The notes beneath the pieces were generated by a model that saw only the letters and a list, made by a program, of their open reading frames with translations, ran no database searches and was not told where the DNA came from. Of a stretch of 54,204 nt of DNA, positions 4,084 to 53,259 are shown one piece after another (positions within the stretch are counted from its first letter, which is position 1; the number at the start of each line of letters is the position of its first letter). The translations under genes were made by a program, and so were the position numbers. The stretch is taken from positions 1 to 54,204 of the IMG/VR virus record IMGVR_UViG_3300027608_002214. One strand, written 5' to 3'. Origin of the DNA: a virus.

Positions 4084-4773
4084 TTATTCACAATTACTGA
4101 TTGCGTCATAAAAGAATTCCCTAACTTTACCGTCGTAGTCTAATTCTATTAGAAGATCGTATATTACATCATAGATTTTTCCCCATTCTTCACTATAATC
4201 ATAATAGCTTCTAATTTCAAAAATTTTATCTGTCATAAATCTTGCAATTTCACCCATCGTTTCGTTTACATAAGGAATCTCATAATTTGCTAACCAATAA
4301 TCACATACATCCTTTGGATTTAAATTATCAAGGTATTCATCCGCAATATATAATAATCTTCTACCTGTTGTTTTGTTGTCAACCCCCTCATTTATATTAT
4401 CTGATTTAACTTCATTATATCTTTCTTTTATTCTTTTACCATAATGTTTAAGTAGTGGTTTTCTAATTTGTTCATGATATTTTTCGGTATCCTCCTCATT
4501 ATCACTAAAATAAATTCGGTTATCATCATTAAAATATTCTTGTTCAATAAGTGTAACCATATCATCAATAACAAACTTTGCAAATACCCATAATGTTGTG
4601 TGTTCCTTCTCTTTAAATATAATTGACCTTGGGTTGTTCATAGAGTCCGCATTTTGTTCTAAAGCAAATTCAAACGCCTCTTCTATATCGTCAGATGATA
4701 CCCTCCTTCTAATAACGGAAGGTATTTGAGTTTCCTCACTTAATATTCTTCTTATGGATTCTTTTATATTCAT
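4084..4773 (-). CDS. Leader-bearing protein, RRR family, possible two-part polyprotein
   Basis: A 229-residue protein. Leader MNIKESIRRILSEE, then IPSVIRRRVSSDD, which starts a helical domain also found three times in the neighbour at 4774-5796. Around residue 129 a second possible site, NINEG, is followed by another basic start (TGRRLLYIADEYLDNL) and a second helical domain. The protein is acidic and rich in Tyr/Asp. No enzyme motif. I infer two cargo domains separated by an I-N-E processing site. Confidence 0.75.
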   Translation of the reverse strand: MNIKESIRRILSEETQIPSVIRRRVSSDDIEEAFEFALEQNADSMNNPRSIIFKEKEHTTLWVFAKFVIDDMVTLIEQEYFNDDNRIYFSDNEEDTEKYHEQIRKPLLKHYGKRIKERYNEVKSDNINEGVDNKTTGRRLLYIADEYLDNLNPKDVCDYWLANYEIPYVNETMGEIARFMTDKIFEIRSYYDYSEEWGKIYDVIYDLLIELDYDGKVREFFYDAISNCE

Positions 4774-5796
4774 CTATAAATCTAATAATAAATTATTATA
4801 TCTCACATTTATTCTATGTTTGTAGTGGTCTCTTAAATTATTAAACACATCATCATACCAATCTGAATTTTCAGGTGTTGTACTGTGTAGTTCATGATGG
4901 ATTCCATCCATCATCATTGAGATTGTTATGTGTTCAAAACTTTCTTGAGTTCTAATAAACCCCCCATTTTGACTTACGCGAACTAACATACCTGATGACT
5001 TGTCTAACGATTCAATAAATTCTCTCTCTAAATCATCATGTGGGACTCTGCGTCGGATCATAGGCAAAAGATTATTCTCTTCCCTTAACACTTTTCTTAT
5101 GGATTCTTGTATGTCACCACCAAACACCTCAACATATCTATCTTTAATCTTATCATAAAAATGATTTAAAATAAAATTATAAACCTCATCATATGGGAAA
5201 TTATCATAATCTTCATCAGATAAATTATCACGATAATCATCAATAAGATATGATATAACAGTAGTTCTAAACACATTAAAACTACAATATTGTCCATTAT
5301 TATGTTTTCTTAAATATTTATCGGTAACAATATTTAAATTTGTTAAGAATTTTTTATCTATTGTACTCATATCAGCTCTTCTACGAAGATATGTAGATTC
5401 ATTAAGTTCTTCCTTTAATACTTTTCTTATTGATTCTTTTATAGGAATTGAACCTGAACCACAATTATCGTCGTAATGTTTCATTATTTTGTCTTGGTAT
5501 TTTTTTCTAATATAATCAACCATATCAAGATATTCATGAGCCCATTCTCCTGAATTATCATCTATATGAAAAAAATAATTAAAATACATAGCGTTAATTG
5601 CACTCTCCATTACTGATTCAAAAAATTCTATATCACTTTTAAAAAATACACATATATTAGATCCTCCAAATGGACCATTTAGTACGCTTTCAACTTCATA
5701 ATCCAAATTTTCCAATCTTCTTCTAAGAAAATTAGACATTTTTTTATCTTCCCTTAACACTTTTCTTATGTGTTCATGTAATATATTACTATTCAT
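4774..5796 (-). CDS. Polyprotein with three in-frame leader+RRR units
   Basis: A 340-residue protein made of three tandem units. Leaders are at residues 5-17 (ILHEHIRKVLRED), 118-131 (IPIKESIRKVLKEE) and 228-241 (DIQESIRKVLREEN). Each is followed by a triple-arginine start (FLRRRLEN, YLRRRADM, MIRRRVPH) and a helical domain ending in a Lys/Arg-Tyr-rich helix (KDRYVEVF, NVRYNNLL). Unit length is about 105-115 residues. No catalytic motif is seen. The start overlaps the upstream gene by eight bases, and the stop abuts the next start. The simplest reading is a polyprotein cut after L-x-E into three related small proteins. Confidence 0.8.
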   Translation of the reverse strand: MNSNILHEHIRKVLREDKKMSNFLRRRLENLDYEVESVLNGPFGGSNICVFFKSDIEFFESVMESAINAMYFNYFFHIDDNSGEWAHEYLDMVDYIRKKYQDKIMKHYDDNCGSGSIPIKESIRKVLKEELNESTYLRRRADMSTIDKKFLTNLNIVTDKYLRKHNNGQYCSFNVFRTTVISYLIDDYRDNLSDEDYDNFPYDEVYNFILNHFYDKIKDRYVEVFGGDIQESIRKVLREENNLLPMIRRRVPHDDLEREFIESLDKSSGMLVRVSQNGGFIRTQESFEHITISMMMDGIHHELHSTTPENSDWYDDVFNNLRDHYKHRINVRYNNLLLDL

Positions 5797-6697
5797 GTAA
5801 AAATCTCCCCTCTAAATCTATTTCCCTCACCTCAAGACCTGAGTTTTCTTCAAACCATCTTTTAAATGTTGGAATCCATTTATTACCAAATATCGATGTT
5901 AATTCATTAACCACCCATCTATTTATGGATAACAAATATAAATAATCATACCCATCGTGTTCTCCAAAATAGGAATATGCTTCAATACCATTAATCTGAA
6001 ATGTGTGCATCCCATAATAATTAACTTCCTTCTTATAATATTTGTGTGTTATGTGTTCTTCAGGTCCCCAAGGATTGGTAAAATCAGGATATAGTTCTTC
6101 TTTTAGGTGTTCATATATTAATCCATCAAGACCTTTATCATCAAGATCCAATATCTTTATTAACCTACTTATTCCACCAACGGCTGTTGATGCCATTTTA
6201 ATACCAAATTTATTAATCATATTCTTCAGTTTGATCTGAATTGTTGATTCTTCCCTTAATATTCTTCTTATATTCTCTTGTATGTTCTTATCAATTAACA
6301 TATCCATAGGGTTTATACCAAGTTTTTCTAAACCCCAAAGTATTTGATTGTATTTTCCGTCATATATTTTATCAACAAAATTTTTATGCTGTTCTGTTGG
6401 AGCTACTTTAGTAATTGCCTTTAGAATCCACCCATCTTCACTTGAATGTTCTACATTATATAAAGTTAGTAAATGAGTATAAGGTTCTTCCAACCATTCT
6501 TTATAAGTTTTTGAATTTGGGTCACCATCAATTGCGGGTGTAACAAAAACAACCCCCGAATTAACCAATTTATCAATATCAAATGGTAACCTTTCAGGAA
6601 CTGTGTCTCTTTTTTTGTCATAATCATAAACCCTTTTATCCGGATTTAATTCCTCATCTTCCCTTAATATTCTTCTTATGGATTCCTGTAGGTTCAT
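5789..6697 (-). CDS. Polyprotein with two leader units; second unit is SVGG family
   Basis: A 302-residue protein. Leader 1 (MNLQESIRRILRED) leads a mixed domain (residues about 20-135) of unknown function. Leader 2 (residues 138-150, NIQENIRRILREE) is followed by IQIKLKNMINKFGIKMASTA-VGG, the start of a domain shared with genes at 6751, 7741 and 8641. A TATTTAT box lies at 6702-6708. Probably cut into two proteins; what they do is unknown. Confidence 0.8.
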   Translation of the reverse strand: MNLQESIRRILREDEELNPDKRVYDYDKKRDTVPERLPFDIDKLVNSGVVFVTPAIDGDPNSKTYKEWLEEPYTHLLTLYNVEHSSEDGWILKAITKVAPTEQHKNFVDKIYDGKYNQILWGLEKLGINPMDMLIDKNIQENIRRILREESTIQIKLKNMINKFGIKMASTAVGGISRLIKILDLDDKGLDGLIYEHLKEELYPDFTNPWGPEEHITHKYYKKEVNYYGMHTFQINGIEAYSYFGEHDGYDYLYLLSINRWVVNELTSIFGNKWIPTFKRWFEENSGLEVREIDLEGRFLHE

Positions 6698-6750: not shown

Positions 6751-7206
6751 TTATCCTTCCAAATACCACCATAAGACAGATTCAAATATTGTATCCACAA
6801 CTTTAGGATCTAATCCATCATATTGTATTGTTACATCACCCAATTCACTAAATCCATCATCATGATTATAATACATTGCAATTACACCATATGTTGTTAC
6901 TATTTCTATTTGTAAGAAATCATTAGTATCTTCATATTCTTCAATTATTATTGGTTCTAAACCGGCATCATTTAAATCTAATTCTTCATCTAAAAATTTT
7001 TCTGAGTCAACAATCTCAACTATCGCATCTATCTTCATTTGAGTTGTCATAAATCCAAAATCCCCCATAATCTTTTCTAAATTATCCATCCCACCAACAG
7101 ATTTGGCAGCATTAATTAACCCATACTTATTAATCATATTCTTCAGTTTGATCTGAATTGATGATTCTTCCCTTAATACTTTTCTTATGGTTTCTTGTAG
7201 GATCAT
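6751..7206 (-). CDS. Leader-bearing SVGG-family protein
   Basis: A 151-residue protein. The ATG at 7206 shares its A with the upstream stop (TAATG) and gives MILQETIRKVLREES; a longer frame to 7227 would overlap the upstream gene and precede the leader, so I reject it. After the leader comes IQIKLKNMINKYGLINAAKS-VGG, then an acidic alpha/beta region (IEIVTTYGVIAMYYNHDDGF). Same domain as in 5789-6697 unit 2, 7741-8613 and 8641-9105. Function unknown. Confidence 0.75.
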   Translation of the reverse strand: MILQETIRKVLREESSIQIKLKNMINKYGLINAAKSVGGMDNLEKIMGDFGFMTTQMKIDAIVEIVDSEKFLDEELDLNDAGLEPIIIEEYEDTNDFLQIEIVTTYGVIAMYYNHDDGFSELGDVTIQYDGLDPKVVDTIFESVLWWYLEG

Positions 7207-7739
7207 TACTTTGTCTTCTTGACACAATTAGGGTATCGTTTACCAAACATCGTCTTCATACCTTTTTGAGTATATCCTGCCCAACATTTTTCTGTAAGTT
7301 CACCTTCTTTCATTTCTTCTTGTCTACCAATATGACTAAAGACTTTTCTTATATCTTTGGGTAAATCGTTAATTGGTATTACCTTTGCCTTAATTGTTTC
7401 TAACCCTTTTCTTACCGCCTTTTGTGCTCTGTGGTGTCCATCTATAATTGATATGAATTCACCATCATTATCAACAAATATTAATATTGGGTATTGTAAA
7501 TCGGCACTATCTATTTTTATAATTTCTTCTTCATCACCATCCCAACTTAATAGGTGTGGTTTTAATTCTTCTACTGAAACTCTTTCCACAGGAATATCTT
7601 CTGTTGCATTTAATAAATCCATAAGGGTTATTTTGTCACCCTCATCATTTTGCCAAGATGTATCGTGTAAGCCCTCATTAATTACTCTTTTAACTAATAA
7701 AATAAGTTCTGACTCTGTTAATCTTATTATTTTTTTCAT
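7206..7739 (-). CDS. Leader-bearing ParB/sulfiredoxin-like protein
   Basis: A 177-residue protein. Leader MKKIIRLTESELILLVKRVI ends in INEG at residues 20-23. Residues 84-122 match the ParB/Srx nuclease-type fold: ILIFVDNDGEFISIIDGHHR (DGHHR at 100-104), then a short helix and strand (KAVRKGLETIKAKVIPI). The last 26 residues (CWAGYTQKGMKTMFGKRYPN, then CVKK) form a separate Cys-containing module preceded by ELTE, another possible cut site. ParB-like domains bind or cleave DNA, or bind nucleotides; which applies is open. Confidence 0.75.
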   Translation of the reverse strand: MKKIIRLTESELILLVKRVINEGLHDTSWQNDEGDKITLMDLLNATEDIPVERVSVEELKPHLLSWDGDEEEIIKIDSADLQYPILIFVDNDGEFISIIDGHHRAQKAVRKGLETIKAKVIPINDLPKDIRKVFSHIGRQEEMKEGELTEKCWAGYTQKGMKTMFGKRYPNCVKKTK

Positions 7740-7740
7740 A

Positions 7741-8613
7741 TTACCTGTTGTATGGTCTAAACCTTGCTGGGTTTGCTTTTATTGCTGACTTTGGGAATCT
7801 TAATCCAACCCCCTGTTGTCTTGCGTTTTTTAATGTTCTTGCGTATTCTGTTAGTTCCTTATCTGTAATATTGTGACAATTTTCAAGATAATAATCTTCT
7901 AACTCATGGTGCTTAAAGTCATTCACATAATGTGTTACATCAAATTTATCTAACATATCAAGATCACCGTGGTATTCATCTCTTAACTCCCATAGAAGTT
8001 CGTCCAAAACCACATAAATAAACTCATCAGGTGTATTATACTTACATAATTCTATATCTTTTATTACCTTTACAATTAGATCATCTAAACGTTGTACTCT
8101 TCGTATTAATTCATTTGGTAATTCTCTTGGTCCTTTTTTTTTAGATTCTAATAAGTCTTCCTCATCATCTTCATCAACAACTTCAGCATCTAAAAATATT
8201 TTACACCCACTCAATGCGAAAACAGGATGCCACGCTGGTCGTACTTTAAAAGGAAATAATTCTTTATTAAGATAATCACATATCTCATTCACATACCAAC
8301 TTGTTACATTTGACGCCATGTGTCCAGTTTTAAAATGAACGTCAAGAATCTTACCCCCATTATTAGATGATCTAACCTCAATAAATGACACATCAATCTG
8401 ATCAAATTTAGTATGGTAAATAAAATTTTTAACTAACATTTCTTGAGTATCTACGTCATATAAATCAAGATTTAATATCTTAGCAACATTTTTCATCCCA
8501 CCAACTGCAGTTGATGCCATATCAATACCTTTATTATCAATTAGATTTTTAAGTTTAACGGATAAAGATGTTTCTTCGGTTAATACTCTTCTTATGGATT
8601 CTTGTAGGTTCAT
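7741..8613 (-). CDS. Leader-bearing SVGG protein with a second RR domain
   Basis: A 290-residue protein. Leader MNLQESIRRVLTEE, then LSVKLKNLIDNKGIDMASTA-VGG (SVGG family) to about residue 150. An acidic linker (DEDDEEDLLES) joins it to a second helical domain beginning ELIRRVQRLDD, similar to the triple-Arg family. The C-terminus is a basic tail (ARQQGVGLRFPKSAIKANPA). No internal full leader is seen. A TATTTAT box is at 8618-8624. Function unknown. Confidence 0.75.
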   Translation of the reverse strand: MNLQESIRRVLTEETSLSVKLKNLIDNKGIDMASTAVGGMKNVAKILNLDLYDVDTQEMLVKNFIYHTKFDQIDVSFIEVRSSNNGGKILDVHFKTGHMASNVTSWYVNEICDYLNKELFPFKVRPAWHPVFALSGCKIFLDAEVVDEDDEEDLLESKKKGPRELPNELIRRVQRLDDLIVKVIKDIELCKYNTPDEFIYVVLDELLWELRDEYHGDLDMLDKFDVTHYVNDFKHHELEDYYLENCHNITDKELTEYARTLKNARQQGVGLRFPKSAIKANPARFRPYNR

Positions 8614-8640: not shown

Positions 8641-9105
8641 TTAATATTGGACAAATCCAAATGGATTTACATCTATTGTTGCAAAGTTAATCAAAACCAC
8701 ATCAATATCAAAATCTTCTTTAATTCTATATTGTATTTCACTTGTTACATTATCGGGGTCACCAGCATTATCACGAACATAAATATTTAAATAAGCTTTT
8801 GGTTTTTCAACATTATCAAAATGGTTTAACTCAATTCTTTCAACAGATTCGATATCTTCAAGCTCAGACATTTCACCTAAACCCCAATCTTCGGAATCTT
8901 TTCTAATATTATCCAATTGATATTGTATTAAATTTTCCACATTTTCTTTTGTAAGATAATCAAAATCTTTCATAATTTTTTTAAAGTTTTTCTTACCCCC
9001 AACAGAACTAATCGCATATTTGAAACCATCTTTATTAATAATAGATAATATTTTTTTTTGTAAAGATGTTTCTTCTTTTAATATTTTCCTGATAATATCT
9101 CTCAT
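8641..9105 (-). CDS. Leader-bearing SVGG-family protein
   Basis: A 154-residue protein with a short leader (MRDIIRKILKEET) and LQKKILSIINKDGFKYAISS-VGG directly after it. The middle has an acidic stretch (EDWGLGEMSELEDIESVE) and the C-terminus mixes strands and helices. Start supported by TATTTATA at 9109-9116, three bases before ATG. Function unknown; closest in layout to 6751-7206. Confidence 0.75.
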   Translation of the reverse strand: MRDIIRKILKEETSLQKKILSIINKDGFKYAISSVGGKKNFKKIMKDFDYLTKENVENLIQYQLDNIRKDSEDWGLGEMSELEDIESVERIELNHFDNVEKPKAYLNIYVRDNAGDPDNVTSEIQYRIKEDFDIDVVLINFATIDVNPFGFVQY

Positions 9106-9680: not shown

Positions 9681-10541
9681 TTATTTAGCCCATTTTGAAT
9701 TTTTTAATTCAGACCTTGGATAAAACCCATCAGCATATTTATCATATCCTGTACCAAAAAAATTATTTTTATCAAGTTTGTCTTGCCAATTATTATATTG
9801 GGTTGTATACTTCCATACTTCGTCTTTATTTGTCATGTAACCATTATTTTTAAGATAAGCACCAACCATCCCTCCAGTTCTATCCGCACCATGAGCACAA
9901 TGAATTAATGTATTACCTTTATTTAAAACTTCACTAGTTTTTTGTATTGATTGGGTATATCCTTTTCCCTCTTTGAACCCACTATGTGAATCAATATAGT
10001 GGTAAGTACAACCATTTTCCTCACATATTTTCCTCTCAGTGTCTTTAGGTGTTTCAGTATGTTTACTTCTATGTTTTTCGTGATCACCACTCATTCTGAT
10101 AATATTTTTTATTCCATATTTTTTAATTACAGAAGGTAATATGTCTGCGGTTATTTGGGCTGATCTCCAATTATTTTGACCTCCAGGTATTTTAGCAAAT
10201 TTAAAGTCTTTTAAATCGTCGGGTTGAACGTCTTTCTCCTTAGTTTTCGTATCATTTTTAATGTCTTTATCATTAGTTTTTTTATCTTCTTTAAATTTTT
10301 TGTATTCTTTATCTATTTTTTCTAATTCTTCTTCACTTGCTGTTGATTCAAGTTTGGATTTAAACTCTTTTTTATCAATTACCCTATTTTTAAATAATTC
10401 AATTAATTTTTTAATTTTTTCAGATAAAAATTCATATATAAAAGATAAAAATCCCTCATTTAATTGATCTTCATTGTAAAATTTAACAATTTTTTTTAAT
10501 TGCTCTTCAGTTATTTTTATTTTTAATTTTCTTTTTTTCAT
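9681..10541 (-). CDS. Leader-bearing tyrosine/dual-specificity phosphatase-like protein
   Basis: A 286-residue protein, start chosen at the ATG at 10541 where MKKRKLKIKITEEQLKKIVK begins. Residues 1-85 are nearly identical to the next gene and contain LNEG (28-31). A charged linker follows (85-112). Residues 115-235 hold a phosphatase fold with the signature LIHCAHGADRTGG (Cys215, Arg221; H-C-x5-R). Cysteine phosphatases of this class remove phosphate from proteins, lipids or RNA ends; target unknown. The stop is adjacent to the M15 gene. Confidence 0.82.
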   Translation of the reverse strand: MKKRKLKIKITEEQLKKIVKFYNEDQLNEGFLSFIYEFLSEKIKKLIELFKNRVIDKKEFKSKLESTASEEELEKIDKEYKKFKEDKKTNDKDIKNDTKTKEKDVQPDDLKDFKFAKIPGGQNNWRSAQITADILPSVIKKYGIKNIIRMSGDHEKHRSKHTETPKDTERKICEENGCTYHYIDSHSGFKEGKGYTQSIQKTSEVLNKGNTLIHCAHGADRTGGMVGAYLKNNGYMTNKDEVWKYTTQYNNWQDKLDKNNFFGTGYDKYADGFYPRSELKNSKWAK

Positions 10542-10555
10542 AATTCTTTTATTAA
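10288..10555. repeat. 268 bp direct repeat, copy 1
   Basis: Encodes the N-terminal leader and helical stalk of the phosphatase-like protein plus the bases just upstream of its ATG. Copy 2 is at 11228-11495, same length, with only scattered differences. Confidence 0.85.
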
Positions 10556-10563
10556 ATGATAAT

Positions 10564-11481
10564 CTAAGTAATATTTTTAATGTCAAATTTGTCAACTGCC
10601 GCAATCGCATTTGCCCTATGAGAACTAACTCCTCCACCAGCATTTATATCAGCAAAATGAGTAGCGGCTTCAGTTTTATTTTTAAATTTAGGAAATGTAT
10701 TACCTGGTTTACCTTTAGTAAAAAATGCGACAGCAATTTCCGCAGCAACTGTTGGGTCGTTAGCTAAGTCAGGATTTCCTACTAAGTTTCTACCAATCAT
10801 ATTACCATATTTTTCGTAATTTTTTTTACCTGTTAGTTGGTTAAATCCTCTACCTCGGTATTTCCATCCATCACCACCACCTTGGTTTCCAACTGTCTTT
10901 GCATACACTACGTTGAAGAATTTTTCAGGGTTTTTTTTAAGAGAGTCCATTTCACTATCTGAATATTTTGAAACTCTAGACCCAAAAATTTTTCTAATTC
11001 TTGAATTTGATGTATTGGCATAAGATACTTCAGATTTTGGTCTAAAATTTGATTCTTTAGATATTACAGATAAAACGCCAATTTGAGCCAATGGGTCTTT
11101 GATTCCTGATTTATTCATGTATTTAATCATTAACTCAATATTAGCTTTCTGTGTTGAGTCAAAATTACCCTTTAAAAAAACTTTACCTGTATCTCCATTA
11201 TAATTAGGAGTATCCGATTTTTTTTCATCTTTAGATTTTTTGTATTCTGTACCTATTTTTTCTAATTCTTCTTCACTTGCAGTTGATTCAAGTTCAGATT
11301 TAAACTCTTTTTTATTAATTTCCCTATTTTTAAATAATTCAATTAATTTTTTAATTTTTTCAGATAAAAATTCATATGTAAAAGACAAAAATCCCTCATT
11401 TAATTGATCTTCATTATAAAATTTAACAATTTTTTTTAATTGCTCTTCAGTTATTTTTATTTTTAATTTTCTTTTTTTCAT
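10564..11481 (-). CDS. Leader-bearing GH19 lysozyme/chitinase
   Basis: A 305-residue protein starting at the ATG at 11481. Residues 1-85 duplicate the leader/stalk of the phosphatase gene. From residue 104 a GH19 catalytic domain follows: GVLSVISKESNFRPKSEVSY (Glu143 and Glu151 in the positions of the catalytic pair of H-E-S-x-G-F...E-x-x-x-Y in phage GH19 enzymes) and KYRGRGFNQLTGKKNYEKYG. It hydrolyses peptidoglycan glycan strands in phage relatives. The shared N-terminus suggests the same destination as the phosphatase. Confidence 0.87.
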   Translation of the reverse strand: MKKRKLKIKITEEQLKKIVKFYNEDQLNEGFLSFTYEFLSEKIKKLIELFKNREINKKEFKSELESTASEEELEKIGTEYKKSKDEKKSDTPNYNGDTGKVFLKGNFDSTQKANIELMIKYMNKSGIKDPLAQIGVLSVISKESNFRPKSEVSYANTSNSRIRKIFGSRVSKYSDSEMDSLKKNPEKFFNVVYAKTVGNQGGGDGWKYRGRGFNQLTGKKNYEKYGNMIGRNLVGNPDLANDPTVAAEIAVAFFTKGKPGNTFPKFKNKTEAATHFADINAGGGVSSHRANAIAAVDKFDIKNIT

Positions 11482-11495
11482 AATTCTTTTATTAA
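11228..11495. repeat. 268 bp direct repeat, copy 2
   Basis: Second copy of the leader/stalk segment, now in front of the GH19 domain. The breakpoint at about residue 85 separates identical N-terminal halves from unrelated catalytic halves. Confidence 0.85.
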
Positions 11496-12112
11496 TTTTC
11501 TTCGAATTGTTTCTGCCAAATATGTTCAAAACTTATTTGTAATCGTTCATCATCTTGTTCTTCCCAATATGTTCTTCCTCTTCCTGTGGACTCAATATAA
11601 TCAAGAATTTGTTCTCTATCGTAATTTGGGATATCTTTAATCAATTCATATTCACACAATCTATTTTTGTAATCGTGTTCATCGGCATCATCCAAATCAT
11701 TGAATTGTATACCATATTTTTCTGATATATAATTTATATAATGATCCTCAAAATACTCAGTCAATAAATGTAAGGCTAAACCTCTTCTTATATTAAATGT
11801 CGCTGTTATCTGATCTACAATTTTTTTATCAAAACTTATTCCAGCATAAGGATCTATTTTTTGGGTTTCGGAGTCATCATCCCAACCAGGTTCATCACCA
11901 CCGCTAAAGTCAGCCACTACTCTACCATTTAAACAAAATTCTACGGATACCGAACCATATGATCTTTTTGGATCTTTATATTCTACTCTCATAGATTTAA
12001 ACAATAATGATATCTTTTTTGTTATAACATTACTTAATTCAGGACTTAATCTTCTATATTTACTTTGAATCTCTTCCCTTAATACTTTTCTTATTGATTC
12101 TTTTAGGTTCAT
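11492..12112 (-). CDS. Leader-bearing protein, function unknown
   Basis: A 206-residue protein. Leader MNLKESIRKVLREEIQ, then SKYRRLSPELSNVITKKISL, a basic helix. The rest is mixed alpha/beta and acidic at the end (YWEEQDDERLQISFEHIWQK). No catalytic motif. TATTTAT at 12117-12123 supports the start. Confidence 0.75.
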   Translation of the reverse strand: MNLKESIRKVLREEIQSKYRRLSPELSNVITKKISLLFKSMRVEYKDPKRSYGSVSVEFCLNGRVVADFSGGDEPGWDDDSETQKIDPYAGISFDKKIVDQITATFNIRRGLALHLLTEYFEDHYINYISEKYGIQFNDLDDADEHDYKNRLCEYELIKDIPNYDREQILDYIESTGRGRTYWEEQDDERLQISFEHIWQKQFEEN

Positions 12113-12116
12113 AGTA

Positions 12117-12123
12117 ATAAATA
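12117..12123 (-). promoter_or_regulatory. TATTTAT box of the 11492-12112 gene
   Basis: Box four bases before the start codon (TATTTATTACTATG on the coding strand). Confidence 0.5.
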
Positions 12124-12127
12124 CTAT

Positions 12128-12841
12128 CTACAGATAAATAATTCTCCAATTACCTTTAAAATCTTCTACAAGACACGTAGAGTTTTCACAGAAGTCACCA
12201 CTGTTCATATAGTCCACATCTAATTTAGGTTGATGAATATGACCACATACCGCAACATCAAATCCTTTTTGTTTTGTTAAACCTTTTGCGTTCTCCTCAA
12301 AATCAGATACAAAGTTGATTGCTCCCTTTACAGATTGTTTTATATCATTTGCCAAGGAATGGTATTGTAAGTTAAACTTTCTCCTGATATAGTTGTATAT
12401 TGTATTTAATCTAATAATCAAATCATATGACCATCCACCAAGAACTGCCAACCATCTTACTTTCATAATAACAAAGTCCAACACATCCCCATGAAAACAA
12501 TAATAACTTCTACCATCCGCGCCAATGTGTGTGTACTTTCTAACAATCTCTATGTTGTTTAATAAGAACGGAACAAATGGTTTTAAAAAGTCATCGTGGT
12601 TTCCCCTAATATATACTACCTTTGTTCCCTCTTCTGATCGTTTCATAAAACGTCGGAATATCTTTGAGCATTCTTTCTTCCATTTACCACCACCCTTTAA
12701 TGCCCATCCATCTATAATATCACCATTTAATATTAGTGTTTCAGATTCATTATTCTCTAAGAATTTTAAGATCTTATCTGTTTGTGATTGTCTTGCACCT
12801 AAGTGTAAATCACTCATTATTATTGTTCTCCACTTTTTCAT
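12128..12841 (-). CDS. LpxH-like metallophosphoesterase
   Basis: A 237-residue calcineurin-like phosphoesterase with all metal motifs: SDLHLG, LILNGDIIDGW, IRGNHDD and VCGHIHQP. The length and the GNHDDFLKPF pattern match the UDP-2,3-diacylglucosamine diphosphatase (LpxH)-like group that acts in lipid A synthesis. The ATG at 12841 overlaps the stop of the glycosyltransferase as ATGA, so the two are translationally coupled. With that partner it may modify the host surface. It has no leader. Exact substrate uncertain. Confidence 0.85.
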   Translation of the reverse strand: MKKWRTIIMSDLHLGARQSQTDKILKFLENNESETLILNGDIIDGWALKGGGKWKKECSKIFRRFMKRSEEGTKVVYIRGNHDDFLKPFVPFLLNNIEIVRKYTHIGADGRSYYCFHGDVLDFVIMKVRWLAVLGGWSYDLIIRLNTIYNYIRRKFNLQYHSLANDIKQSVKGAINFVSDFEENAKGLTKQKGFDVAVCGHIHQPKLDVDYMNSGDFCENSTCLVEDFKGNWRIIYL

Positions 12842-13560
12842 TTCCAATAATCCTTATCGTTTGTAAAATATTCTTTATTGTTACTATTGAAGAATGATGA
12901 CAACATAAGTCTTAACATATACATAACACCCTTATTCTCAAATCTTCTTGGTGGTGTAAACACAATGTTGTTTATTCTTCCAAACTTCTTTGGTTTGATT
13001 TGTTTTGAGAAAATATAATCTTCAGCAACTTTAATATCTTCATCAAAACCTCCGATTGATTTAAACGTCTCTGAACGAACTAACATATACCCACCGAGAC
13101 AGAATGGTGTTGACCACTTGGAAAGTGACTGTATTAAGTCAAATACCTTATATACGTAATTGAATTTTCCATTGTCCGAACGGAACTTTGTTGTTACCAG
13201 ATCTAAATGGTATCTATGTATTCTTATAATTGATCTTTTTAGTACCTTTGGATCCAATAGGAACACATCTGCATCCATAAACAACACATATGGTGTTGTA
13301 ACAAGTTTGAATCCGTTGTTTCTTGCTATTGCTGGAAGTCCACCCTCCATTAAATGTAATTCAAATTTATCATGAAAGAATTTGTACACTAATCTATTCA
13401 ATAGCTCAGTTTTTGTAATTCCATCATTTGATGCATCACATACAACAACTTTTACGTTATGTATATCAACTTGATAGTTTAGCAGGTCCAACGTTTTTAT
13501 TATAATATCCTTCTCGTTCTTACAAGGAATAACTATTGTTACAAGATTTGATAACTCCAT
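12838..13560 (-). CDS. Family 2 glycosyltransferase
   Basis: A 240-residue GT-A glycosyltransferase: VTIVIPCKNEKDIIIKTLDL at the N-terminus, VLFMDADVFLLDP containing the D-x-D metal site, and GGFDEDIKVAEDYIFSKQ in the acceptor region. A hydrophobic stretch near the C-terminus (GVMYMLRLMLSSFF) may touch the membrane. It transfers a sugar from a nucleotide donor; acceptor unknown. It is first of a two-gene unit with the metallophosphoesterase and has TATTTATA at 13565-13572. Confidence 0.85.
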   Translation of the reverse strand: MELSNLVTIVIPCKNEKDIIIKTLDLLNYQVDIHNVKVVVCDASNDGITKTELLNRLVYKFFHDKFELHLMEGGLPAIARNNGFKLVTTPYVLFMDADVFLLDPKVLKRSIIRIHRYHLDLVTTKFRSDNGKFNYVYKVFDLIQSLSKWSTPFCLGGYMLVRSETFKSIGGFDEDIKVAEDYIFSKQIKPKKFGRINNIVFTPPRRFENKGVMYMLRLMLSSFFNSNNKEYFTNDKDYWK

Positions 13561-25411: not shown

Positions 25412-26749
25412 TTAATTTGATAATGGTGCTTTAATTTTTTCGTGTGATCTATAATTACTTAATTGTATATCTTCTTCTAATAAACATTTACAAAAATTGT
25501 CATTAGTAAATGAATTAAATATTTTTATTGCATCTAATAGTCCTATACCACACTCACCTGATTCAGTTGGCCAAAACTCTGTGTTGATGTTTAGGGTTGG
25601 TAGTGTATATGGTTCTCTTGTTCGGGTTGGTACATTCCATTGGTCAATTTCAGAATGTGATAATGTGTTACTGTCTCCACCATTATATATTTGATTAAAC
25701 ATTTCTTGAGTAACCATTTCTCTTCTTTCATCTAAATCTAATTCTCTACCAATCTGTTCTTTTGCTTGTTCAACGTGATTCAAATACAAATGTGTATCAC
25801 CCAAGTTACCAATCAATTCATCAGGAACCATATTAACTGACTTGGCAATAATTTCCAATAACAATCCGTAAGACGCAATGTTAAATGGTAAACCTAAGAA
25901 TGTATCTACTGAACGTTGATTCCACATTAAAGAGATTGCTCTGGTTGGAATATTAAATTTGTCACATTCTTTATGAACCTCATTATCTAAATCTATACTA
26001 ACATTACTTTTTATAAAATCAAACAGTTCATTTGAATCCAATAAATTAATTTGTTTAGTGTTTTTATACGTGATTCTTTCACTAGCACTCAACTCTCTTG
26101 TATAAACTTGAAATCCATAATGACAAGGTGGAAGAACCATTTGGTCTAATTTACCCACATTCCAAGCATTAACCATTAATCGTCTTGAGTCTGGATTTGT
26201 TTTAAGGTCGTTGATTAAGATTGATATTTGGTCTATAACCTTTTCCCCAACTAATGTATGTAGACCATTGTGTCCTATTGTTACATTTTCACCTGTACCC
26301 CAACTTCTCCACTGTTTACCATAAATTTTTCCAAGGTCACCCCACTTCTTAGCAAACTCATCATCTGTTTTGATTTTGTTGATGAAGTCTTCTTGTGTTT
26401 GGTATTTTACTAATTGACCAGCTTGTGAAGAAATTAAATCAGAGTAGTTTTCTGATTTATAGTCTGGGTTATATATATAATTCTTATAAGCATCACCATC
26501 CCAAATATGACAACCATTATCAACAAGGAACTTGATGTTTGTATCACCACGTAAGAACCACATTAGTTCTGTAACGATTGATTTCCATGCCATCTTCTTA
26601 GTTGTAAGTAATGGAAACCCCTCACTCATTTTATGTCTAATCTGTCTACCAAACACTGAAAGAGTACCACCGTTTCTTGTTTCTTTTTTTACACCATTAT
26701 CAAAGATGTCTTGTAGGAGTGATTGGTATTGTTTATCTAGGTTATTCAT
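25412..26749 (-). CDS. thyA: Thymidylate synthase with insertions
   Basis: A 445-residue protein; ordinary ThyA is about 264. Core motifs are present: TRNGGTLSVFGRQIRHKMSE, the nucleophile site LPPCHYGFQ (Cys209), DSRRLMVNAWN and LPFNIASYGLL, so it should methylate dUMP to dTMP using methylene-tetrahydrofolate. The extra length comes from inserts, roughly residues 90-135, 215-262 and 350-395, outside the core motifs. Phages use ThyA to boost dTTP. The stop region overlaps no other gene; the start overlaps the upstream gene by eight bases. Confidence 0.95.
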   Translation of the reverse strand: MNNLDKQYQSLLQDIFDNGVKKETRNGGTLSVFGRQIRHKMSEGFPLLTTKKMAWKSIVTELMWFLRGDTNIKFLVDNGCHIWDGDAYKNYIYNPDYKSENYSDLISSQAGQLVKYQTQEDFINKIKTDDEFAKKWGDLGKIYGKQWRSWGTGENVTIGHNGLHTLVGEKVIDQISILINDLKTNPDSRRLMVNAWNVGKLDQMVLPPCHYGFQVYTRELSASERITYKNTKQINLLDSNELFDFIKSNVSIDLDNEVHKECDKFNIPTRAISLMWNQRSVDTFLGLPFNIASYGLLLEIIAKSVNMVPDELIGNLGDTHLYLNHVEQAKEQIGRELDLDERREMVTQEMFNQIYNGGDSNTLSHSEIDQWNVPTRTREPYTLPTLNINTEFWPTESGECGIGLLDAIKIFNSFTNDNFCKCLLEEDIQLSNYRSHEKIKAPLSN

Positions 26750-33430: not shown

Positions 33431-35287
33431 TTAGATTACCTCTTCAAACTCAACATCAGATGGTTTACTATTTTCTTCTTCTGTTGTTGTTTGTTCGTAC
33501 AATAATTGACTAATATTTTGAAATTTAGTATTAAGATCATTGATATCATTTTCAATCTTCTCAATATCTTTTTTACCGTAAGATTCTTTTAAACTTTCAA
33601 GTGCCGTATTAAGTTCGATTTTTTGATCTTCGGTTAATTTTTCATCTAAATCTTTGATTGATTTTTCAGTTTGAAAAATTGTACCGTCGGCTCTATTTAT
33701 AACTTCAGCATCTTCTCTTAGTTTTTTGTCTTGTTCAACATTTAACTCAGCTTCTTGTTTCATTTTCGCAATCTCTTCTTTTGATAACCCAGAAGATGCC
33801 TCAATACGAATTGTTTGTTGTTTGTTTGTTCCTTTATCTATCGCTGACACATTGATAATTCCATTTGCGTCAATATCAAACGTAACTTCAATTTGTGGAA
33901 CACCTCTCATTGCCGGTGGAAGACCATCTAAGTTGAATTTACCAATAGTTTTATTATCGGTTGACATTGCTCTTTCTCCCTGAAGTACGTGGATCTCAAC
34001 TGTTGGTTGATTATCCACTGCCGTTGAGAACACCTGAGATTTTTTAGTCGGGATTGTGGTATTAGACTCAATCAATTTAGTCATAACTCCACCCATAGTT
34101 TCAATACCTAAAGATAATGGTGTTACATCTAATAATAAGACATCTTTAACATCACCAGCTAACACACCTCCTTGGATTGCAGCACCTAACGCAACTACCT
34201 CATCAGGGTTAACACCTTTAGAAGGTTCCTTACCAAAGAATTGTTTAACCGCATCTTGTATTGCTGGAATTCTTGTTGTACCACCAACCAAGATAATTTC
34301 ATCAACATCAGAAACCTTCATCTTAGCATTTTTTAATGCCTTCTTACAAGGTTCAATTGTTCTTTTAACCAAAGAATCAACTAACTGTTCAAATTTAGAT
34401 TTTGATAATGTTCTTACCAAATGTTTTGGTAGACCATCCACAGGCATAATATAAGGTAAATTGATCTCACTTGATGAGGTTGAAGATAATTCAACTTTTG
34501 CCTTCTCAGCCGCCTCACGTAATCTTTGTAATGCCATTGGATCCTGAGTTAAATCAAGACCGTTCTCTTCTTTGAATTCACTTACTAACCAATCGATGAT
34601 TGTTTGATCAAAGTCATCACCACCTAAATGAGTATCACCATCAGTTGATAATACTTCAAACACTCCGTCACCTAATTCAAGAATGGACACATCGTGAGTA
34701 CCACCACCACAGTCAAAAACCACAACTACCATATCTTTAGACATTTTATCTAAACCATAAGCTAATGCCGCCGCGGTAGGTTCGTTAATAATACGTTTTA
34801 CTTCTAAACCCGCAATTTCACCTGCCTCTTTAGTTGCTTGTCGTTGAGCATCGTTAAAATATGCCGGTACGGTAATAACCGCCTGAGTTACCGTTTCACC
34901 CAAATAATCCTCAGCAGTTTGTTTCATCTTTTGAAGTACCATTGCCGATATTTCTTGTGGTGAATATTGTCGTTTATCTATTTCAACTCTTGGAGATCCT
35001 CCATCACCTTTAACAATCTTATACGGTACTTTTTTAATCTCTTTTTTAGATTCATCAAAACTTGTCCCCATAAAACGTTTAATTGAACTAATAGTTTTAT
35101 CCGGATTGGTTACAGCTTGTCGTTTAGCCGGATCTCCAATTTTTCTTTCACCATCTGTAATAAATCCAATGACGGATGGTGTTGTTCGTTTACCTTCACT
35201 ATTTGTTATAACTACAGGTTCGTTTCCTTCCATAACGGCAACACACGAATTTGTTGTTCCTAAATCAATTCCAATAATTTTTCCCAT
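33431..35287 (-). CDS. dnaK: Hsp70 chaperone DnaK
   Basis: A 618-residue Hsp70 of near full length (bacterial DnaK is about 640). ATPase motifs [52 protein letters not shown] and [20 protein letters not shown] are present, with the substrate-binding domain ([20 protein letters not shown]) and a lid ending in FEEVI, shortened relative to bacterial homologues. It refolds proteins with ATP and pairs with the DnaJ at 52333. No GrpE is seen in the window. Likely captured from a host for folding of virion proteins. Confidence 0.97.
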
Positions 35288-36422: not shown

Positions 36423-36983
36423 ATGAAAATTATTTTAACTGAATCTCAATATTCAACATTATTAAATGAGGTAGTTGATTTTAATTCACTATATAAATCT
36501 TTATACCCAAAAATGTATCGACAAGTTTGTTTGAAATATGCAAATGGAGATGAAGAAAAAGCAAATGATTTTTGTCAATTAGGGTTCATTAAAGTATATC
36601 AAAAAATTAGTATGTACAATGAGTCAGGACCTATTGAGGCTTGGGTAAAACGTGTAATCACAAATACAGTAATTGATGAATGGAAAAAAGAAAAAAGAAG
36701 TCCATACAAAAACCCCATTGACTTTGAACGAGCAAATTTAGAAGTAATTGACGACACCCCAGAAGAAAGTTTATATTCATCAAAAGAGATTAAAGATGCC
36801 GTTGAAACTTTATATCCTTCACAAAAAAAAGTATTTGAGATGTTCTTTTTTGAAAATATGAAACATCAAGAAATTGCCGAAGAATTAGGGATTAGTGAAA
36901 GCACATCAAAAACTAATTTATTTAAAGCAAAGGCAAAAGTAAAACAATACCTAATTAATTTAAACAAAAAAAGGGAAGACTAA
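36423..36983 (+). CDS. ECF-type sigma factor with virion-type leader
   Basis: A 186-residue RNA polymerase sigma factor. Residues 1-17 (MKIILTESQYSTLLNEV) match the leader of the zinc-ribbon protein at 16369 (MKIIITEEQSKLLLEG), ending in L-N-E. Region 2 follows (NDFCQLGFIKVYQKISMYNE, AWVKRVITNTVIDEWKKEKR) and region 4 has a helix-turn-helix (HQEIAEELGISESTSKTNLF). It should direct host RNA polymerase to specific promoters, perhaps the TATTTAT class. A sigma factor carrying this leader is unexpected; packaging is an inference. Confidence 0.85.
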   Translation: MKIILTESQYSTLLNEVVDFNSLYKSLYPKMYRQVCLKYANGDEEKANDFCQLGFIKVYQKISMYNESGPIEAWVKRVITNTVIDEWKKEKRSPYKNPIDFERANLEVIDDTPEESLYSSKEIKDAVETLYPSQKKVFEMFFFENMKHQEIAEELGISESTSKTNLFKAKAKVKQYLINLNKKRED

Positions 36984-41178: not shown

Positions 41179-41428
41179 TGTGGTGTTGGATGTACCATAG
41201 GGCTTTTCTGAGGTCTTCAAGTTCTGTATCTTTTCTTTTTTTTCCTGCACGGCTAATATATTTTATTGCATTTCCTAAACTAAACCCCAAATCCCAAGCA
41301 TCAATAACTTTTATTGCTTCGTATTCATTATTTTTTCCCCCATAATGTTGAGGATGATTTACTTGTTCTATTTTTATCGGTGGACACTGACAAAGTCCGG
41401 TTCCACCACATACACATTCTTTATCCAT
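41159..41428 (-). CDS. DUF3310 (SaV-like) protein
   Basis: An 89-residue protein with the DUF3310 core: VNHPQHYGGKNNEYEAIKVI, FSLGNAIKYISRAGKK and LEDLRKALWYIQHHIEN. This family is widespread in phages and predicted to act in nucleotide metabolism or kinase-like roles; the true function is unknown. Its N-terminus carries a Cys-rich piece (CVCGGTGLCQCPP). Confidence 0.88.
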   Translation of the reverse strand: MDKECVCGGTGLCQCPPIKIEQVNHPQHYGGKNNEYEAIKVIDAWDLGFSLGNAIKYISRAGKKRKDTELEDLRKALWYIQHHIENIEK

Positions 41429-42546
41429 TATTCTTCTTTATATTCGTTTAATAATTCATCATTAGAAATTGTACCATATTTACCACTAAGATTATTTGTG
41501 TCAATATTTTTAGTCATCATGGTTTTTATATCGTATATTTGTTTTGTTTCGTGGAGTGATTTAACAATCTCAAAAATAATTTTATATGGGTCTGCGTTTG
41601 ATCCTGGTCTTCTGTCTTCAAGATATCCTTTCCATTCCTCTGCGGTTTCTTTTGGAACTCTAATTGATGCTCCTCTATCAGAGACACCCCAACTAAACTT
41701 ATCTATTGATTGTGTTTCGTATTCACCAGTAAGTCTTAAATTATTGTTTGAACCGTAAGATTTAATGTGTTGACGATGTCTTGATTCAAATGCGTTAAAC
41801 AATGACATAAAATATTCTTTATTTCCATCATTTCTCATAATATCTGTTGAAAAATTTGTATGAAGACCAGACCCATTCCATTTACCATGTGTAATTGGTT
41901 TTGGGTGTAAATCAATGTGGTATGAATATTTCTCTGAGGTTTTAAAAAGAAAATATCTTGTCATCCAAAGATCATCTCCACTTTTTAATTTTTCTTTAGA
42001 TAATACTTGGTATTCCCATTGTCCTAACGCAACCTCAGCATTAACTCCTGTAATATCAATTCCATAATTTAAACACATATTTAAATGTTTATCAACAAAA
42101 TCTCTTCCAACAACATATTGACCAACTCCACAATAATATTTACCTTGTGGTTCCAAGTTGTTTTGATCATGACCTAAAACGCATTTGTTTTTTTTGTCGT
42201 ATATAAAGTATTCTTGTTCAAAACCAAACCAAAGATCTTCAAAACCTTCACCAATACTTGATCTTTTATTTGACTCGTGTGGTGACCCATCAGAATTTAA
42301 TACCTCACATAAGACATATACGGTTGATTCCATATCTTTAAAATAATGTCTAACAGGTTTTAAAATACAATCTGAACTTCCTGTTTCAGCCTGTAATGTT
42401 GAAGACCCATCAAAGTTCCAAATTGGGAAATTTCCATCAAGAAACGCTTCCTTAATAGATTGATAGTCAACTATTTTTACCTTACTTCTAAGATTTGGTT
42501 CTGGTTTATATCCATCTAACCACACATATTCTAATTTAACTTTCAT
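41428..42546 (-). CDS. glnA: Type II glutamine synthetase
   Basis: A 372-residue enzyme starting at the ATG at 42546 (MKVKLEYVWLDGYKP). GSII motifs: WNFDGSSTLQA, LWFGFEQEYFIYD (metal and substrate Glu), NGSGLHTNFST and EDRRPGSNADPY (ATP site). It makes glutamine from glutamate, ammonia and ATP, as in Bacteroidota and eukaryotes. An intact glutamine synthetase in phage-like DNA is a rare auxiliary metabolic gene; glutamine feeds nucleotide synthesis. The stop overlaps the DUF3310 start by one base. Confidence 0.93.
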   Translation of the reverse strand: MKVKLEYVWLDGYKPEPNLRSKVKIVDYQSIKEAFLDGNFPIWNFDGSSTLQAETGSSDCILKPVRHYFKDMESTVYVLCEVLNSDGSPHESNKRSSIGEGFEDLWFGFEQEYFIYDKKNKCVLGHDQNNLEPQGKYYCGVGQYVVGRDFVDKHLNMCLNYGIDITGVNAEVALGQWEYQVLSKEKLKSGDDLWMTRYFLFKTSEKYSYHIDLHPKPITHGKWNGSGLHTNFSTDIMRNDGNKEYFMSLFNAFESRHRQHIKSYGSNNNLRLTGEYETQSIDKFSWGVSDRGASIRVPKETAEEWKGYLEDRRPGSNADPYKIIFEIVKSLHETKQIYDIKTMMTKNIDTNNLSGKYGTISNDELLNEYKEE

Positions 42547-42554
42547 ATACAATT

Positions 42555-52180: not shown

Positions 52181-52336
52181 ATGAAAACTGAAGCAACACA
52201 AGTAACCGGATGTAAAAAATGTGGACAATCGCCAAGTAAAACACAAAAATTTGTTTTTATTACTGGAGCAATAATGTTTTTATTGACAATATATGGTTTA
52301 GTTTCTTTAATATATGATATTAAATCACTATTTTAA
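52181..52336 (+). CDS. Small single-span membrane protein with CxxC
   Basis: A 51-residue protein. The ATG at 52181 (MKTEATQVTGCKKCGQSPSK) is preferred over an upstream frame that overlaps the methyltransferase gene in opposite orientation. C-K-K-C near residue 11 could bind metal; one transmembrane helix follows (FVFITGAIMFLLTIYGLVSL). Function unknown. Confidence 0.65.
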   Translation: MKTEATQVTGCKKCGQSPSKTQKFVFITGAIMFLLTIYGLVSLIYDIKSLF

Positions 52337-53259
52337 CTTCTATTGTATTTAATATATTGATTTATTAATAAATCACCATTATGTTGGTTTTTATACCCTT
52401 TTCCTTTAACTCTTAATGGTGTTGATGTATCAACATTATTTGGGAATTTAACATTTATTTTTCCATCTGGATGTGGAACATCAAATGATCCTCTTTTTAA
52501 ATCATCAAGATTTAAAAAAGCACTATATATAAGATTTGTTCCTAATTTTTCAAAGTTACCCTCATTAGTTGTTTTAACTCTAATAACCAAATTACCATAT
52601 CCCCCGTTTCTATAATCACCAAGTCCTTGTAATCTTAAAAACTGACCATCATCAATTCCATGTGGTAGTTGGATCTCGATTGTTTTAATCTCATTTTTTG
52701 TTCCTTGTCCCCCACAAGCATAGCAAGCTGCTGTTGTTATTTTACCAACACCATTACAAGTATTACACGCTACTTGGACTATCTGTATAAACATTCCTGA
52801 ACCCATTTGTTTTACAACAAATCCTTTTCCATTACAAACATTACATGGTTTTTTCTCTCCCCCATTTCCATTACATGGAGGACATTTATCTTTTCTGTTA
52901 TATGTTATACTTTTTTTACCCGCTAAGTATGATTCCAATACACCAATATTTATATCAATTATGGTGTCGTGAACTCTATTTTGTGAATTACGACCACCAA
53001 ACATATTATTCATAATGTCATTCATTGATTGACCTCCAAAACCGTTCATGTTAGAAAATGGGTTATTTCGTTGGTTGTTGTATTGTGATCTTTTATTTTC
53101 GTCTCCAATAGTATCATATGCAGTTGAGATTTTTTTAAACTTTTCCTCATCCCCACCTTTATCGGGGTGATTTTCTTTAACTAAATTCCTATAAGCTTTT
53201 TTAATTTCGTCTTGAGTTGCACTTTCTGTAACTCCTAACACATTATAATAATCTTCCAT
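52333..53259 (-). CDS. dnaJ: DnaJ co-chaperone
   Basis: A 308-residue DnaJ. J domain at 1-70 with HPDKGG (31-36); Gly/Phe-rich stretch (NPFSNMNGFGGQSMNDIMNN); four C-x-x-C-x-G-x-G zinc motifs (CPPCNGNG, CNVCNGKG, CNTCNGVG, CYACGGQG); then the substrate-binding C-terminal domain, shorter than in bacterial DnaJ (about 375). It stimulates the DnaK ATPase; DnaK is 17 kb away in the same window. The last bases overlap the small membrane gene by four. Confidence 0.95.
   Translation of the reverse strand: MEDYYNVLGVTESATQDEIKKAYRNLVKENHPDKGGDEEKFKKISTAYDTIGDENKRSQYNNQRNNPFSNMNGFGGQSMNDIMNNMFGGRNSQNRVHDTIIDINIGVLESYLAGKKSITYNRKDKCPPCNGNGGEKKPCNVCNGKGFVVKQMGSGMFIQIVQVACNTCNGVGKITTAACYACGGQGTKNEIKTIEIQLPHGIDDGQFLRLQGLGDYRNGGYGNLVIRVKTTNEGNFEKLGTNLIYSAFLNLDDLKRGSFDVPHPDGKINVKFPNNVDTSTPLRVKGKGYKNQHNGDLLINQYIKYNRS

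Follow-up and report, generated by a model that had tools for sequence, protein, structure and literature searches.

Introduction

The internal proteins of phage T4 bear capsid-targeting propeptides of 10–19 residues, and the T4 protease gp21 cleaves after the motif L/I-X-E (PMC9026906). These proteins differ from one another in everything except the leader (PMC3012670, PMC12373910), and those with known targets block host restriction enzymes (PMC12373910). The T4 capsid protein gp23 is also processed, with removal of a 65-residue propeptide (PMC5694885).

The locus described here lies in the window, which is the whole stretch of viral DNA analyzed, a 54-kb fragment of 54,204 nucleotides. Its central feature is ORF 5789-6697, in which two modules are joined through a second copy of the N-terminal leader (Table 1). 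Sequence comparison suggests that this ORF is probably a cargo polyprotein that is directed to the prohead, cleaved at every LxE motif and injected.

Table 1. Coordinates of the fused ORF and of neighboring leader genes in the window; a slash follows the last residue of the motif
Feature	Position	Strand	Details
Fused two-module ORF, polyprotein candidate	5789..6697	-	302 aa, open throughout
N-terminal leader MNLQESIRRILRED	6656..6697	-	predicted cut after E13 (LRE/D); motif DNA 6659-6667
N-terminal copy matched by internal leader, NLQESIRRILRED	6656-6694	-	
Front module, residues 15-136	6290..6655	-	single gene in L054; other partners in L001, L098, L190
Codon AAG (K137), at the place of the leader's ATG start	6287..6289	-	
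Internal leader NIQENIRRILREE, residues 138-150	6248..6286	-	predicted cut after E149 (LRE/E); motif DNA 6251-6259
Back module, residues 151-302: SVGG mini-module and C-terminal domain	5792..6247	-	also found as a separate gene (L223, L247, L250) and after other fronts (L119, L216)
Three-leader ORF with related 'RRR' modules (three, ~95 aa each)	4774..5796	-	340 aa, adjoins fused ORF
Internal leader 1 of ORF 4774-5796, PIKESIRKVLKEE	5407..5445	-	
Internal leader 2 of ORF 4774-5796, DIQESIRKVLREE	5077..5115	-	
Leader gene, MNIKESIRRILSEE	4084..4773	-	
Leader gene with SVGG mini-module, leader MILQETIRKVLREE	6751..7227	-	
Leader gene: SVGG mini-module, second module, basic tail after KELTE	7741..8613	-	tail from residue 257, DNA 7845
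Leader gene with SVGG mini-module, MRDIIRKILKEE	8641..9105	-	sequence reading
Gene with second leader type MKKIIRLTESELILLVKRVINE/G, basic tail LTE/KCWAGYTQKGMK	7206..7739	-	tail from residue 151, DNA 7289

Results and Discussion

The internal leader of ORF 5789-6697

A leader profile of 13 positions was built from 50 N-terminal leaders. The internal copy in ORF 5789-6697 scored 40.6 bits against it, compared with a maximum of 15.3 bits in shuffled proteins, and 22 internal matches of at least 12 bits were found in the real proteins versus 0.25 per shuffle replicate. The sequence-only reading that residues 138–150 repeat the N-terminal leader was therefore confirmed far beyond chance. Both leaders of the ORF end in LRE, and the N-terminal leaders of genes 7741, 4084 and 6751 closely resemble them. 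When only the first nine profile positions were used on the collected contigs, 46 internal matches were obtained versus 0.4 expected from shuffles, although a few of them (e.g., in L041, L084 and L174) probably represent N-terminal leaders of genes whose reading frame was wrongly extended upstream.

The domain behind the internal leader had been assigned to an SVGG type that elsewhere has its own gene and leader. This holds for three other contigs (L223, L247 and L250); within the window, the likeness to 6751 and 7741 covers only the first 33–36 residues after the leader, and that to 8641 comes from reading of the sequence only. The SVGG stretch itself (~40 residues; 6136-6247, residues 151–187 of the fused ORF) is a mobile mini-module that also occurs in 6751, 7741 and 8641 and sits on differing C-terminal domains. 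A weak YdaS match to this stretch in L119, below the cut-off, hints at a helix-turn-helix.

Both halves occur independently in other contigs

The two halves were found as separate genes in related phage contigs. In L054 (7211-7624), a complete gene of 137 aa corresponds to the front half with 81% identity and stops where the internal leader starts in ORF 5789-6697. The back half is its own gene with its own N-terminal leader in L223 (2269-2754), L247 (6303-6806) and L250 (6940-7419), and the whole 152-aa back module has full-length relatives in other contigs. The halves also have other partners. The front half is found with another leader and with other C-terminal modules in L001 and L098, and in L190 it is joined at the same place, via the same kind of leader, to another back module; the back half stands behind other fronts in L119 and L216, and its C-terminal part alone follows another N-terminus in L022, L164 and L166. 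The halves thus occur singly and in other combinations rather than always as one conserved unit, and the proposal that two cassettes were fused was supported. Two mobile modules fused through an internal leader are well supported by these comparisons.

The same pattern was seen at other joints. Among the 38 joints with enough sequence on either side for analysis, the front module ends as its own gene for 24 and has another partner for 33, while the back module is its own gene for 32 and follows another front for 29. As the contigs were mostly gathered by leader patterns, these counts describe recurrence and not natural frequency.

A metagenome assembly or base-calling error that deleted a stop between two genes is very unlikely as the source of the fusion. 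No second contig was found that carries the exact junction of ORF 5789-6697, which is thus a singleton; against this, the junctions of the adjoining triple ORF 4774-5796 are repeated in the independent contigs L002, L029 and L094, a fused front is common to L042, L053 and L250, and in L190 this front is joined to another back at an identical position.

The L054 front gene ends in TAATG, in which its stop codon and the start codon of the following gene overlap; the protein encoded by that following gene resembles the C-terminal part of the back half over a short stretch (35% identity over 37 residues). Initiation of translation within the fused ORF, at M131 or M133 upstream of the internal leader, would be another way to obtain a second protein. 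Two in-frame ATG codons do lie 5 and 7 codons before the internal leader, and T4 gp21 provides a precedent for an internal start (PMC9026906), but both Met codons are part of the front module and recur in L054, in which the following gene starts at an overlapping ATG of its own. Moreover, other internal leaders have no Met just before them (e.g., ..KNKKSKTNLQES in L006 and ..FQLKLKNLQEH in L042), and internal initiation is considered very unlikely.

Codon usage and origin of the joint

At the DNA level, the leaders of unrelated genes have rare synonymous codons in common, and this bias fades past the leader. In R-type leaders, CTA encodes Leu3 in 80% (background, 10%), ATA encodes Ile7 in 96% (38%) and AGG encodes Arg12 in 83% (14%). 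The internal leaders carry the same codons as the N-terminal ones, and for this reason it is most likely that they descend from leaders at the starts of genes. A role of the codon bias in translation start was rejected, since internal leaders, far from start codons, have the same codons. Within any one large contig, all matches to the start-codon leader pattern are on a single strand, and in most of these contigs they are only a few kilobases apart.

The sequence-only reading had attributed the fusion to loss of a stop. The AAG codon at the junction is one base from ATG and, together with the TAATG overlap in L054, makes this plausible; in-frame recombination at the leader DNA gives the same picture, and the stop loss is not proven. 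Module exchange by recombination at leader DNA fits the codon data, with which stop loss agrees equally well. Leader DNA, common to otherwise unrelated genes, is a probable site of module swapping and joining.

A protease motif at leader ends, tails and joints

The leader is a short N-terminal peptide common to proteins with unrelated mature parts, and its main types end in [I/L]xE, e.g., ILREE, GLLNEE and RVINE. An LxE motif with its E at residues 10–28 was present in 98% of R-type, 90% of MM-type and 91% of RLTES-type proteins, whose mature parts are dissimilar. In the controls, LxE at residues 40–58 was found in 17–25% and LxD in 11–18%. For the MKIIITES type, which may be different, the figure was no more than 64%. 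When 120 mostly dissimilar leader proteins were aligned, only three columns, all in the leader, were nearly invariant, including that of the E of LxE.

The motif also recurs away from N-termini. In all 32 cases, the residues immediately before a basic tail module (KCWxGY...) are [L/I]xE, with T, N, S, D or C in the middle, and tails of the ARTLKNARQQG type have LxE one residue upstream in 5/6. The module STYLRRR... sits behind ELNE, PVNE or GINE irrespective of the upstream sequence. The KCWxGY tail module was additionally observed in cyanophage proteins near terminase genes (L157–L159: S-RIM8, S-BM3 and BUCT-ZZ01), where it does not always come right after LxE.

The internal joint of ORF 5789-6697 is probably a processing site, since its leader ends in the prohead-protease motif. 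The two modules might instead form one working two-domain protein in which the internal leader is an uncut leftover linker. This is unlikely, given that LxE is retained at the exact position in 10 of the 13 internal leaders from loci fetched by patterns blind to LxE (background, 2.6% per position), that joints without a full leader (ELNE/S, INE/S and LTE/K) also have the motif, and that many joints pair unrelated modules in shifting combinations, unlike a fixed two-domain function. It nevertheless agrees with the loss of LxE from the internal leaders of L119, L024 and L034, and with the recurrence of the same module pair for 11 of the 38 joints. As the leaders have a common, recent DNA ancestry that includes the rare synonymous codons, the retained LxE may be partly due to recent descent, and a site without function may still be kept. 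LxE is also not universal among N-terminal leaders: in L001, L054 and L098, the front module has an MM-type leader with the ending NPNE or PTK.

Protease and capsid protein in related phages

Of 17 large contigs chosen for the leader, 13 contain both an S77 protease (Peptidase_S77, gp21-like) and a gp23-type capsid protein; the remaining four lack both and could be incomplete. The S77 proteases of these relatives align with T4 gp21 across the conserved His and Ser blocks. In their capsid proteins, INE/A, LNE/S and VTE/T align at FLTE/A of T4 gp23; this site is the end of the known 65-residue gp23 propeptide, so that the [I/L/V]xE of the relatives aligns with the known T4 cut site. The S77 protease had no match in the 54-kb window fragment, and the window DnaK is 75% identical to the DnaK of G012 and G013, two contigs that encode the S77 protease and gp23.

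Taken together, the motif, the protease and the capsid site strongly suggest that the leader is a capsid-targeting propeptide cut by the protease. It is improbable that the leader is another recurring N-terminal element, such as a peptide with a binding partner in the host or phage, or an expression element, in which LxE is incidental. Such an element could account for the codon usage conserved across unrelated genes, which points to constraint or shared ancestry at the DNA level, and for the weaker LxE signal in the MKIIITES type. However, one short motif with a variable middle residue recurs in three unrelated leader types, in the tail modules and in the capsid protein, the S77 protease and gp23 accompany the leaders, and the persistence of the codon pattern in internal leaders argues against an expression role at the translation start. 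By eye, the leader and those of T4 IPII and IPIII have in common only a helical start and the terminal IxE, with no sequence similarity beyond this; the two may work similarly, and homology is not supported.

As a propeptide of this kind, the leader would take the protein into the prohead core, like the capsid-targeting sequence on T4 internal proteins, and the gp21-like (S77) prohead protease would cut after its terminal [I/L]xE. The genes of the island would encode cargo that exits the head with the DNA and acts in the host cell, possibly in beating host defenses or in host takeover. In ORF 5789-6697, two cargo genes would have merged and left the second leader in mid-chain. Cleavage at LRE/E during head maturation would then yield two mature proteins of about residues 14–149, with the spent leader at its end, and 150–302.

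Domains, structure and candidate cargo

No credible Pfam domain was detected in either half of ORF 5789-6697, with one sub-threshold match. The EIF_2_alpha, YdaS and HypA Pfam matches were all under their cut-offs and were rejected. The AlphaFold model of the whole ORF had a mean pLDDT of 66, with a poor front half and a reasonable back half, and a Foldseek search with it returned no significant match in the PDB or among viral models. For the 'RRR' module of ORF 4774-5796, the predicted structure was compact and helical (pLDDT 86), and the leader formed its own helix of lower certainty; Foldseek found no significant match to this module in the PDB, and its alignment was too diverse for use as a search query. 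Recognizable domains among the 120 leader proteins include peptidoglycan hydrolases, a sigma factor, a thioredoxin, a phosphatase and a nuclease; most of these proteins fall outside known Pfam families.

Other genes of the window were also noted. A Sigma-70 family (ECF-like) factor at 36423-36983 (plus strand) has as its N-terminus a leader of the MKIIITES type, MKIILTESQYSTLLNEV, and may be head-packaged cargo. The adjacent genes 9681-10643 and 10564-11529 (minus strand) share an 80-residue N-terminal segment (KIKITEEQLKKIVKFYNEDQLNEG...) with 95% identity, behind which one is a phosphatase-like enzyme and the other a chitinase-like (GH19) enzyme. Four genes at 25412-26749, 33431-35287, 41428-42552 and 52333-53259 (minus strand) make up a set that fits a large phage: a thymidylate synthase and, as judged by reading the sequence, genes resembling DnaK, glutamine synthetase and DnaJ.

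In contig L001, three adjacent genes at 11527-13483 (minus strand) have repeated LGNLxSVGGxLxL units after MKIIITESQY leaders. At 6976-8182, the same contig contains two arrays of 36-base repeats (GTTGAAAATGTCATACAAAATGGGGTGATAAACACC) with ~30 bases of unique DNA between them that seems richer in GC; the region looks like a phage-borne CRISPR array, although the frame is open through the repeats.

Phage relatives and host

A tblastn search of a phage collection with the whole protein, the leader peptides and the 7741 protein gave no match, and no cultured phage carrying the leader was found. Related loci sought with the 7741 protein were likewise not found. By capsid protein, Flavobacterium phage immuto is among the nearest cultured phages, with about 41% identity; the RLTES leader pattern had no match in this phage. 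The MM leader pattern had no exact match in bacterial and archaeal genome contigs. Freshwater phages of comparable size and gene content have been published (PMC9723584), and from these and the immuto capsid our guess is that the host belongs to the Bacteroidetes.

Comparison with known systems

We consider it somewhat better than an even chance that large T4-type phages, probably of Bacteroidetes, possess a combinatorial cargo system in which the leader would act as capsid address, protease site and recombination handle, and in which modules would be gained, swapped, strung into polyproteins and cut into several injected proteins. If this is true, the leader would mark, at the sequence level, proteins that are packaged into the head and injected by a large phage group with hardly any cultured members, and many candidate host-takeover or counter-defense proteins of unknown function could be listed from it. 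It would also mean that the prohead protease processes cargo polyproteins, and would offer a simple route for cargo exchange between phages.

Among described systems, T4 IPI, IPII, IPIII and Alt likewise have a short N-terminal leader ending in [I/L]xE on otherwise unrelated proteins (PMC9026906, PMC3012670, PMC12373910). A gp21-type protease and gp23 are present in T4 as in the relatives of the present phage, the genes of both systems lie in variable hotspots, and the C-terminus of Alt is trimmed as well, as proposed here for the basic tails. The T4 internal proteins, however, have one leader each, whereas the present phages also have leaders inside chains of two or more modules; in addition, the leader sequences are unlike those of T4, several leader types coexist, and the packaging of the present proteins is a prediction.

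A second likeness is found in the giant phages phiKZ and SPN3US, whose head and ejection proteins are cleaved by a diverged prohead protease and whose head proteins have propeptides and several protease sites per protein (PMC5694885). Their extra sites lie in removed propeptides, whereas those described here separate cargo modules that also occur as genes of their own. The polyvalent proteins of phages and conjugative elements also resemble the present chains in carrying several unrelated domains, with proposed co-delivery with DNA and, sometimes, cleavage (PMC5512222). Those proteins have many recognizable enzymatic domains, some with a peptidase domain of their own, while here the joint is a repeated leader with the prohead-protease motif; Pfam and fold searches detected neither a peptidase domain nor other recognizable conflict-related domains in ORF 5789-6697, which sets it apart from polyvalent proteins. 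In the literature that could be searched, there was no report of a prohead protease cutting phage polyproteins between cargo domains. The parts of the T4 system are known, and swappable cargo chained by repeated internal leaders looks new.
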